Made by a program: the position numbers and the translations under genes. This document shows positions 164 to 63,828 of a DNA stretch of 64,000 bases, piece after piece. Positions within the stretch are counted from its first letter, which is position 1, and every line of letters begins with the position of its first letter. The DNA comes from Candidatus Kuenenia stuttgartensis (lineage in GTDB: Bacteria > Planctomycetota > Planctomycetia > Planctomycetales > Planctomycetaceae): the NCBI GenBank assembly GCA_945861865.1, contig CAMAWN010000004.1, positions 1 through 64,000 of the forward strand, written 5' to 3'. Under the pieces are notes generated by a model that saw only the letters and a program-made list of their open reading frames with translations, made no database searches and was not told the origin of the DNA.

Positions 164-241
164 GCTCAACTCCTGGGGTGAAAGGGAGAAAAACGGATGC
201 GATGAGGGCTCGCGAGGTTTCGGCCGCGCGGAAAAGTCCTG

Positions 242-297
242 AACACGACGCGCCCGCGAGTGGTGACCAACGAAACCACTCGCTGGCGCGTCGTGCT
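242..297. repeat. Palindromic dispersed repeat family A (arms ~23 bp)
   Basis: AACACGACGCGCCCGCGAGTGGT (242-264) / ACCACTCGCTGGCGCGTCGTGCT (275-297); same core at 57918-57977 and 63088-63112. Confidence 0.85.
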
Positions 298-607
298 GAC
301 TCACTTCAAGTTGCACCGAAAACTTCCCGACTCCTGGGAATCCTGCCGGCCAGACTGAAGCGGGAGCCGCGCGGTACGGCCCCTCTAAGTGCGTAGCCGA
401 AATGGAAATTTCTCACTAATTCTTCCAGAATTTCAGAAAATCCCGAAAATATCCGCCGCGACAGGCCGGAACTCGTCGCATGGACGCTGGCGGACCCCCA
501 AAGCCGGGTGCCGGAGGGTGAACAAGCCCCCGAGCCGCGCAGGGCGTCCCTGGGAGGGCTGAAACTGGGGCAAATGCCGTAACTCGAAGCGGCATAAGCT
601 TGCGCGC

Positions 608-11147: not shown

Positions 11148-11216
11148 GCGATGTGTCAGCACCGCTTTCTGATGGCCACAGAAAACGAATCCAAAGCGGT
11201 GCTGACACACCGCGTC
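11148..11216. repeat. Dispersed inverted repeat family C
   Basis: GTGTCAGCACCGCTTT ... AAAGCGGTGCTGACAC; GCGGTGTGTCAGCACCGCTTTGGATTC also found at 41566-41592 in the other orientation. Confidence 0.8.
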
Positions 11217-27165: not shown

Positions 27166-27190
27166 AACTAGCCCAAAGCGCGAGCGAGGT
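27166..27190. repeat. Dispersed repeat family B, in the korA-korB junction
   Basis: AACTAGCCCAAAGCGCGAGCGAGGT; near-identical to AACTAGCCCGAAGCGCGAGCGAGGG at 63045-63069. Confidence 0.8.
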
Positions 27191-41546: not shown

Positions 41547-41565
41547 TTGAGATTCCTTTGGAGTG

Positions 41566-41692
41566 CGGTGTGTCAGCACCGCTTTGGATTCTTCTCTCTC
41601 CGCGAGCTTTGCGCCTCTGCGTGAAAAGCATTCTCACGCAGAGGCGCAAAGCTCGCAGAGAAACAAAATGCGATGCTGACACACCGCACGCC
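41566..41692. repeat. Nested palindromic element, family C
   Basis: Outer TGCGGTGTGTCAGCACCGC...GCGATGCTGACACACCGCA around inner TTTGCGCCTCTGCGTGAAAAGCATTCTCACGCAGAGGCGCAAA. Confidence 0.85.
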
Positions 41693-41696
41693 AGAT

Positions 41697-47250: not shown

Positions 47251-47282
47251 CCGCCCTCGCTCACGCTTCGAGTGACATTGTG
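47251..47282. repeat. Dispersed repeat (reads VTRSVSEG on the minus strand) at the 5' edge of the kinase remnant
   Basis: CCGCCCTCGCTCACGCTTCGAGTGACATTGTG; resembles the GCGAGCGAGG core of family B. Confidence 0.55.
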
Positions 47283-47384
47283 AGTGCGTTGATTGAGGTG
47301 GCACCCGAGCGACATGCGTTGTCCTCTTTTGACAACGTCTTCACGCAGTTGCGACGCGCGAACTGCGCGGAACAACGGGACGTT

Positions 47385-47444
47385 CAGCACGCCGCACCAG
47401 CGAGTGATTGTTCGAGAACAATCACTCGCTGGTGCGGCGTGCTG
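47385..47444. repeat. Perfect 29-bp-arm palindrome, family A variant, upstream of nuoJ
   Basis: CAGCACGCCGCACCAGCGAGTGATTGTTC ga GAACAATCACTCGCTGGTGCGGCGTGCTG. Confidence 0.95.
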
Positions 47445-47532
47445 GGTGCATTCCCATCGCGAAGAGAGCCAACTACAGTACGCTCGCGTTCGAGATCGCT
47501 CGTTTGACGTTTGACGTTTGAAGGACAAGGGA

Positions 47533-57911: not shown

Positions 57912-57917
57912 TCACAC

Positions 57918-57977
57918 CAGCACGACGCGCGAGCGAGTGGTCCCGACGCACACCACTCGCTGGCGCGTCGTGCTGGA
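57918..57977. repeat. Palindromic dispersed repeat family A (25-bp arms)
   Basis: CCAGCACGACGCGCGAGCGAGTGGT (57918-57942) / ACCACTCGCTGGCGCGTCGTGCTGG (57953-57977). Confidence 0.92.
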
Positions 57978-62490: not shown

Positions 62491-63669
62491 TCATTCGGCT
62501 CTGAAGTTCGACTGCTCTCGTACGATTTCCACAACAGCGCTGGCGGCTGGCGGCTGGGCGAGAGCGAGAACATTTTGGCGGAGTCGGTCCCGCAACGAAG
62601 GATTGCTCAAAAGTTGGACGAGAGAGGCTCGCAAAGAGTCGGCAGCGGGCGAGGTCGGTTCGGCTACGAGGGCGGCGGAGTGGTCGGCGAACAGGCGGGC
62701 GTTGAGTCGCTGGTGGTCGTGAGCCGAGGTCGGGAGCGGAACCAGGAGAGCCGGCAGGCCCGCGCACGCGAGTTCGGCCAGCGTGGTGGCTCCCGCTCGC
62801 GAGACGACGCAGGTGGCGCGGCAGTACTGCTCGGCCATGTCGCGAAAGAAGGGTTGCACGTCGGCCGCCAGCGATAACTCGGCATAACGCTGACGAATGG
62901 CGTCGAGATCAGTCGCTCCGGTTTGATGCACGATTCGCCAACCAGCGAGTTCGGCTCGCAGAGTCGCGAGAGCATCGAGCACAGCGGCGTTGAGCGATGC
63001 CGCGCCTTGGCTCCCGCCGAGGATCAACAATGTGGGCGTTTCCAAACTAGCCCGAAGCGCGAGCGAGGGATTGTCGCTCTCATCATGACCACTCGCTGGC
63101 GCGTCGTGCTGGTGTGAGCCGAACGCTGAGTCGGCCAGCGCTGCGATCTCGGCTCGGATCGGATTGCCGGTCACGATCGTCTTCACGCCGCGAGGTAATC
63201 CGTTCGCGGCTTGTCGCCACGGCAAGCAAACGACCTCCGCGAAGCGACTCAACCAGCGAGTCGCTTTGCCGGGCACGACGTTCTGTTCCAACAGCACGAT
63301 TGGCACACCGGCCCGCCACGCGGCCAGCACCGGAGGAACGCTCGCGAAGCCACCCAGTCCCACGACCACGCTCGGCTGTTCGTGAGCCATGATTGCACGA
63401 GCCTGCCGGTATGCTCGCCCGTTGTTGAGCAGCGATGAGCCGATGCGCGTCGGACTTAGTGACGGCGAGACCGACGGCAACGCGACATGCTCGAACCCCG
63501 CACTGCCGATGATGTCCTGCTCGATCGGCTTCTGCGATCCGACGAACAGCACGCGTGCATCCGGTTCGCGAGCGAGCAACTCGCGCGCGACCGCGATGCC
63601 GGGAAATAAGTGCCCGCCAGTACCGCCACCAGCAAAGATCACGCTCCGTCGTGTCGAGGCATTCGTCAT
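62491..63669 (-). CDS. murG: UDP-N-acetylglucosamine--N-acetylmuramyl-(pentapeptide) pyrophosphoryl-undecaprenol N-acetylglucosamine transferase
   Basis: IFAGGGTGGHLFPGIAVARELL ... LLEQNVVPGKATRWLSRFA ... LLILGGSQGAASLN ... VSRAGATTLAELACAGLPALLVPLPTSAHDHQ. Confidence 0.93.
   Translation of the reverse strand: MTNASTRRSVIFAGGGTGGHLFPGIAVARELLAREPDARVLFVGSQKPIEQDIIGSAGFEHVALPSVSPSLSPTRIGSSLLNNGRAYRQARAIMAHEQPSVVVGLGGFASVPPVLAAWRAGVPIVLLEQNVVPGKATRWLSRFAEVVCLPWRQAANGLPRGVKTIVTGNPIRAEIAALADSAFGSHQHDAPASGHDESDNPSLALRASLETPTLLILGGSQGAASLNAAVLDALATLRAELAGWRIVHQTGATDLDAIRQRYAELSLAADVQPFFRDMAEQYCRATCVVSRAGATTLAELACAGLPALLVPLPTSAHDHQRLNARLFADHSAALVAEPTSPAADSLRASLVQLLSNPSLRDRLRQNVLALAQPPAASAVVEIVREQSNFRAE
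63045..63112. repeat. Family B + family A (half) repeats lying in frame inside murG
   Basis: AACTAGCCCGAAGCGCGAGCGAGGG (63045-63069) and ACCACTCGCTGGCGCGTCGTGCTGG (63088-63112); the murG frame reads HQHDAPASGHDESDNPSLALRASLE. Confidence 0.9.
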
Positions 63670-63703
63670 ATTGAGATCGGGAAGTTACGCTGCCATCGTG
63701 TCC

Positions 63704-63808
63704 GTGGGGCAGGTTTTCAACTTGCCCGGCCCATGACAATTTGTGTGCTCGACTTCGCCAAGTCGCGCCAGCATTGAGGTTCACGGGCAGGTTAAAAACC
63801 TGCCCCAC
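63704..63808. repeat. Composite inverted pair of family D repeats between murG and sulfatase
   Basis: GTGGGGCAGGTTTTCAACTTGCCCG (63704-63728) and CGGGCAGGTTAAAAACCTGCCCCAC (63784-63808). Confidence 0.85.
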
Positions 63809-63828
63809 GATGACAACCGAGGTGCCTC

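Follow-up and report, generated by a model that had tools for sequence, protein, structure and literature searches.

The window analyzed here, a stretch of 64,000 nucleotides from a planctomycete draft genome (G000), carries a murG gene whose reading frame stays open across a palindromic insert (Table 1). The product is a true MurG: its score against the TIGR01133 equivalog profile (279.9) was above the cutoff of 250.25, both GT28 domains were found, and the structure model had a MurG fold, with 3s2u as the best Foldseek match (E = 7e-25) and 1f0k also among the best matches. Sequence matches in the PDB were 3s2u, 1f0k, and 7d1i. Between G000 and its relative G011, synonymous differences outnumbered nonsynonymous ones in the two MurG domains (42 versus 10 and 24 versus 6), and thus, judged by these counts, both domains flanking the insert are under purifying selection. 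A pseudogene or decaying MurG was ruled out by the intact motifs, the equivalog score, and the synonymous excess. Recombination between the murG halves was also considered and rejected; half-by-half identities differed somewhat (90% for the N-terminal and 89% for the C-terminal half between G000 and G006), with no clear mosaic. Immediately upstream of the murG start, an inverted repeat (CGTGGGGCAGGTTTTCAACTTGCCCG ... CGGGCAGGTTAAAAACCTGCCCCACG) was seen at 63703-63809, and GQVFNLP-type sequences resembling it recur elsewhere in the genome, for example, at an ORF start on contig C13.

Table 1. Positions of murG, its insert, and related palindromic elements in the window
Feature	Position	Strand	Evidence or comment
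murG, 392 aa	62491..63669	-	Frame open across insert; TIGR01133 279.9 bits; Foldseek 3s2u/1f0k
N-terminal GT28 (Rossmann) domain, residues 10-147	63229..63642	-	Pfam PF03033
Inserted/disordered interdomain segment, residues 182-209	63043..63126	-	pLDDT <50; alignment with relatives
C-terminal GT28 domain, residues 213-358, begins TLLILGGSQGA	62596..63033	-	Pfam PF04101
REP arm, sub-type CCC/GGG, CTAGCCCGAAGCGCGAGCGAGGG	63047..63069	+	- strand reading encodes PSLALRAS
Spacer separating both REP arms of murG	63070..63089	.	
REP arm, sub-type CAC/GTG, CCAGCACGACGCGCCAGCGAGTG	63090..63112	-	Encodes HQHDAPASG
Intergenic inverted dimer	240..299	.	
Intergenic single arm, CCC/GGG sub-type	27168..27190	+	
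Intergenic single arm	47254..47276	-	
Intergenic inverted dimer	47384..47445	.	
Intergenic inverted dimer	57917..57976	.	Same element as murG insert

The initial annotation had described two dispersed repeats inserted in frame in murG and adding about 28 residues. Both 25-mers are present; however, they are not separate repeats but the inverted arms of a single heterodimer at 63047-63112, with one arm per sub-type, and two independent repeats were thereby ruled out. The extension is in frame, as described, but amounts to about 25 residues over an uninserted linker, and the predicted MurG includes the peptide HQHDAPASGHDESDNPSLALR. The 25-mer ACCACTCGCTGGCGCGTCGTGCTGG at 63088-63112 has the identical intergenic copy that had been reported, although at 57952-57976, one base from the position first given, and its match at 275-299 (1 mismatch) was recovered, as was the match of AACTAGCCCGAAGCGCGAGCGAGGG (63045-63069) at 27166-27190 with 2 mismatches. 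Shuffled sequences gave 0 chance matches to either 25-mer when window copies were counted.

In the AlphaFold2 model of MurG, built from 11 sequences (mean pLDDT, 82.9), residues 182 to 209, which correspond to the insert, had pLDDT values below 50, and the only other stretch below 50 was residues 1 to 4. The insert was placed between the helix at residues 172 to 183 and the strand at residues 213 to 219, in the linker joining the two Rossmann domains, while the remainder folded well, which bears out the interdomain position that had been proposed from the sequence. On this model, the insert most likely forms a flexible connection, and the open frame suggests that it is translated.

A dispersed REP-like palindrome and its host genes

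The reading of the insert as a mobile palindrome presupposes that the 25-mers recur elsewhere in the genome, and they do: when at most 2 mismatches were allowed, the core CCAGCACGACGCGCCAGCGAGTG had 139 copies in the genome and a reversed control had 0. A degenerate pattern spanning both 25-mers found 199 arms in the source genome (G000; 6.24 Mb in 351 contigs), where about 0.01 would be expected at random, and between 76 and 463 arms per genome across the genus, again with 0 in the reversed control. The arm consensus consists of a 5' CYAG tag followed by CNC-GA-NGC-loop-GCG-A-GNG, and the predicted hairpin, ....(((..(((....))).))), leaves a 4-nt 5' tag unpaired; in G000, the tag variants were CTAG and CCAG and also CTAA and CCAA. 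Stem positions 6 and 22 covary (A-T in 39 and C-G in 21 of 68 arms from 1.24 Mb), and by this covariation the CCC/GGG and CAC/GTG repeats are sub-types of one REP-like element. The elements are approximately 66 bp long, and 31 of the 37 found in 1.24 Mb were inverted dimers. Only 5 of these 37 lay wholly inside genes and 4 touched a gene end, in a tally that covered 1.24 Mb (20% of the genome, 89% coding according to a home-made hexamer-based gene caller). The binomial probability of 5 or fewer elements in genes, given 89% coding DNA, is approximately 5e-26, a deficit that would follow if most insertions into genes were purged or avoided.

The same REP class was found in 63 of 120 genomes sampled from the family, some of them with a GTAA tag that is close to the classical REP tag GTAG. 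The GTAA variants were confined to other genera within this family (G021, G105, and G109), and they possibly link the CYAG class to classical GTAG REPs. A RAYT enzyme as the mobilizer of the element was left without support: none of three Y1_Tnp-like matches, two of them on short contigs, was flanked by this REP. Two other repeats were observed in the window, namely, a further dispersed palindrome, GCGGTGTGTCAGCACCGC, at 11187-11213, 41565-41591, and 41667-41693, and seven tandem copies at 567-958 whose period, 41 bp, is not divisible by three.

Within the 1.24 Mb, the gene hosts of the REP encoded MurG, MutL, a dihydroorotate dehydrogenase (DHOD)-like protein (Pfam support for this assignment was weak), a DUF1549/DUF1553 protein, and a DUF7133/cytochrome c protein. 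Of the 12 genus genomes, 3 (G000, G005, and G003) had an in-frame REP insert of 24 residues in mutL, and in the remaining 9 the site was short and cleanly empty. In-frame REP dimers were present in the DHOD-like gene of G000, G009, G005, and G003, and the DHOD-like gene of G006, G011, G010, G007, G004, and G002 lacked an insert; no REP was seen in the more divergent genes of G001 and G008. Filled and empty sites in these two genes show that REP elements enter reading frames. The junctions of the MutL insert have a short GACT repeat, which is a candidate target-site duplication, and no matching duplication was recognized elsewhere.

A family-independent scan found 63 palindromes, of which 10 were inside genes, and some of these 10 were compared with relatives. 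The in-gene palindromes included those in a P-type ATPase and in a CbiM-PDGLE protein, the latter insert separating the N- and C-terminal parts. In the P-type ATPase (L144:7167-10568, on G000 contig C8), the 24-residue palindrome-derived insert LLWGKFSTCPPSESVQVENLPHDE follows DKTGTLTRGEL, and the same ORF unusually combines the ATPase with a C-terminal SPFH/Band 7 domain. Another large ORF of G000 (C19:19429-22554) contains two different palindrome-derived inserts.

The MurG linker across the genus

We compared 12 genomes of the genus, all with a MurG and all multi-contig drafts. The relatives are metagenome-assembled genomes, mostly labeled Planctomycetota or Planctomyces sp., with two labeled Candidatus Kuenenia; the sample-series codes suggest that some came from lakes and that the group consists of freshwater planctomycetes. 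Measured from GNPIR to LLILGG, the MurG linker was 41 residues in G000, 34 to 79 in ten other genomes, and 16 in G008. It was 14 to 23 residues in 17 MurGs from other genera, so an insert common to planctomycete MurGs was ruled out. Thus, the alignment with relatives that had been proposed as a check showed the insert to be lineage specific, given the short linkers in G008 and the other genera. These short-linker relatives, the copy number, and the structure model agree with the original proposal that a mainly intergenic dispersed palindrome has become coding in murG.

The linker was filled in 11 of 12 genomes within the same window of 8 to 10 residues, and the inserted DNA varied by species. 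REP dimers were present in five genomes (G000, G011, G003, G009, and G002). The murG linkers of G004, G007, and G010 contained the palindrome GGCGGCGTTAGCCCCCGGA (family F2), with 29-bp arms GGCGAGCCGGGCGGCGTTAGCCCCCGGAC; that of G001 contained TGTAGGACGGGCGCTCCTGCCC plus its inverse (F3), and those of G005 and G006 contained a longer CCCTCATCCGGCC element with CCCTCATCCGGCCTTCGGCCACCTTCTCCC (F4). Each was a repeat in its carrier genomes, with 124, 101, and 50 copies of F2, 59 copies of F3, and 62 and 50 copies of F4, and controls were near 0. The inserts common to G004, G007, and G010 and to G005 and G006 are orthologous and have diverged normally. RNA hairpins predicted for the filled linkers ranged from -38 to -97 kcal/mol, compared with -4.8 kcal/mol for the empty linker of G008. 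The G010 murG (L041) also has a second in-frame insert, of approximately 54 residues, in the N-domain before VTGNPIR; it comes from a fifth dispersed sequence, which matches eight more places in G010, most of which have stops in frame.

The four palindrome families share no sequence with one another, and therefore at least four gains occurred at the murG linker, whatever the tree. The DNA tree, in which most forks were unresolved, implies no fewer than five state changes. It places G002, which bears a REP dimer, together with the three F2 genomes (support, 99/93), and this makes an exchange of one palindrome for another plausible. The number and order of insertions and replacements past the four gains are uncertain, owing to the poor resolution of the tree within the clade.

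Origin of the inserts and relation to known elements

The reading that we consider very probable is that the murG segment is a non-autonomous REP-like heterodimer that entered the linker in frame in an ancestor within the genus and has been tolerated rather than used. The palindromes would have been spread by a transposase acting in trans and inserted roughly at random; most in-gene insertions would have been purged, leaving survivors where a linker tolerates 20 to 60 added residues. In MurG, translation of the insert would yield about 25 disordered residues, lengthening the linker and leaving both Rossmann domains untouched, and the linker would have been hit repeatedly as a tolerant site and not on account of a palindrome function. 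A counterpoint to tolerance is that every murG site in the ten-species clade was filled, a pattern that neutral tolerance by itself would not demand.

Four unrelated families inside a window of 8 to 10 residues, filled in 11 of 12 genomes, might also reflect a target preference, whereby the mobilizing enzymes of several families favor a DNA feature in murG and the hot spot matters more than tolerance. With uniform placement, four insertions in one 20-residue window would have a probability of approximately 1.6e-4; however, this estimate takes no account of the probable lethality of insertions at most other MurG positions. Furthermore, the families share no sequence, no common junction target was seen by eye, the MutL site received one insertion across 12 genomes, and the simplest factor that the insertions have in common is a linker able to tolerate them, so that we regard a target preference as improbable. 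It is also conceivable that, after the first insertion, a long linker or a strong mRNA hairpin between the two domains became a requirement in the clade, for which the palindromes are interchangeable, an explanation that agrees with the strong folding of every filled linker, the lack of an empty murG site in the clade, and the plausible palindrome exchange in G002. Yet a hairpin accompanies any insertion, since all four families are palindromes, and no compensatory change keeping the hairpin was seen among the five REP rows, which are too few for a test; we rate this explanation as very improbable. That the linker is kept filled by selection, with parasitic repeats recruited again and again in an essential enzyme for an extended linker or a pause-setting mRNA hairpin, appears quite improbable as well: the strong hairpins and the clade without an empty site leave room for a selected role of linker length or hairpin, and nothing requires one. 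A translational pause for domain-by-domain folding is an example of a role that a hairpin could have.

Repeats are typical break points in metagenome assemblies, and with twelve multi-contig drafts, false inserts could have arisen from contigs joined at repeats. However, both murG halves lay on a single contig with an uninterrupted frame in each genome (in G008, the contig stops within the C-terminal half), orthologous inserts with normal divergence were shared by G004, G007, and G010 and by G005 and G006, and the same MutL insert was present in three separate genomes. Misassembly is thus unlikely, and we consider it extremely improbable as the source of the inserts.

The tolerated REP-like heterodimer that we favor resembles several known systems. 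REP, BIME, and REPIN elements are imperfect stem-loops of approximately 23 bp with an unpaired 5' tag and form GTAG- and CGTC-tagged superfamilies (PMC3733652; Bertels and Rainey 2011, PMC3116915). The planctomycete element likewise has a covarying stem-loop with a tag and occurs in hundreds of mostly intergenic copies, mainly as inverted dimers that include heterodimers. However, its tag is CYAG, which is neither GTAG nor CGTC, and, unlike in REPIN/RAYT systems, no RAYT was flanked by it at the three Y1_Tnp-like loci. REPs inside genes encode 20 to 30 residues, often in DNA repair genes (Di Nocera 2013, PMC3733652), and those in recB of Xanthomonas campestris and X. oryzae lie at about the same site (PMC3733652); in contrast to classical REPs, four unrelated families occupy one site in MurG. 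The initial annotation had drawn a parallel to Rickettsia palindromic elements (RPEs), which are 105 to 146 bp long and of which the copy in Gmk is translated in an active protein, as reviewed (PMC2229807). The parallel holds only as an analogy: the planctomycete elements are palindromic, dispersed, and tolerated by the host protein, fall into several families per genome, and are in frame in conserved proteins (MurG, MutL, and the DHOD-like, DUF1549/1553, and cytochrome c/DUF7133 proteins). Nevertheless, they are REP-like dimers of approximately 66 bp, set apart from RPEs by size (PMC2229807), and most copies are intergenic. Intragenic MITEs, namely, ERIC and the 107-bp form of Correia elements, are likewise non-autonomous and supply open frames that are joined in frame to genes (PMC2229807, PMC10969869). 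The planctomycete elements differ from them in being REP-like dimers, with neither demonstrated target-site duplications nor the long terminal inverted repeats that a parental IS would have. By analogy, the planctomycete elements may work like RPEs and in-gene REPs.

A search of open-license papers for MurG with palindromic inserts returned nothing relevant, and an earlier report in a subscription journal is possible. In-gene REPs were already known; what is new is the host group, the core genes with empty-site controls, and the four families at one linker. RPEs in Rickettsia are the best-known protein-coding palindromes, and such palindromes also occur in Wolbachia, both being organisms with small genomes and weak selection, whereas here the hosts are large-genome planctomycetes and core genes such as murG and mutL. 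Repeats regarded as "junk" appear to have joined the MurG enzyme without visible gene breakage. In effect, nature has run an insertion experiment in the MurG linker, replicated independently several times and with empty sites as controls, and proteins that can be expressed in Escherichia coli make it possible to address a long-standing question, namely, whether inserts of this kind are used or tolerated.
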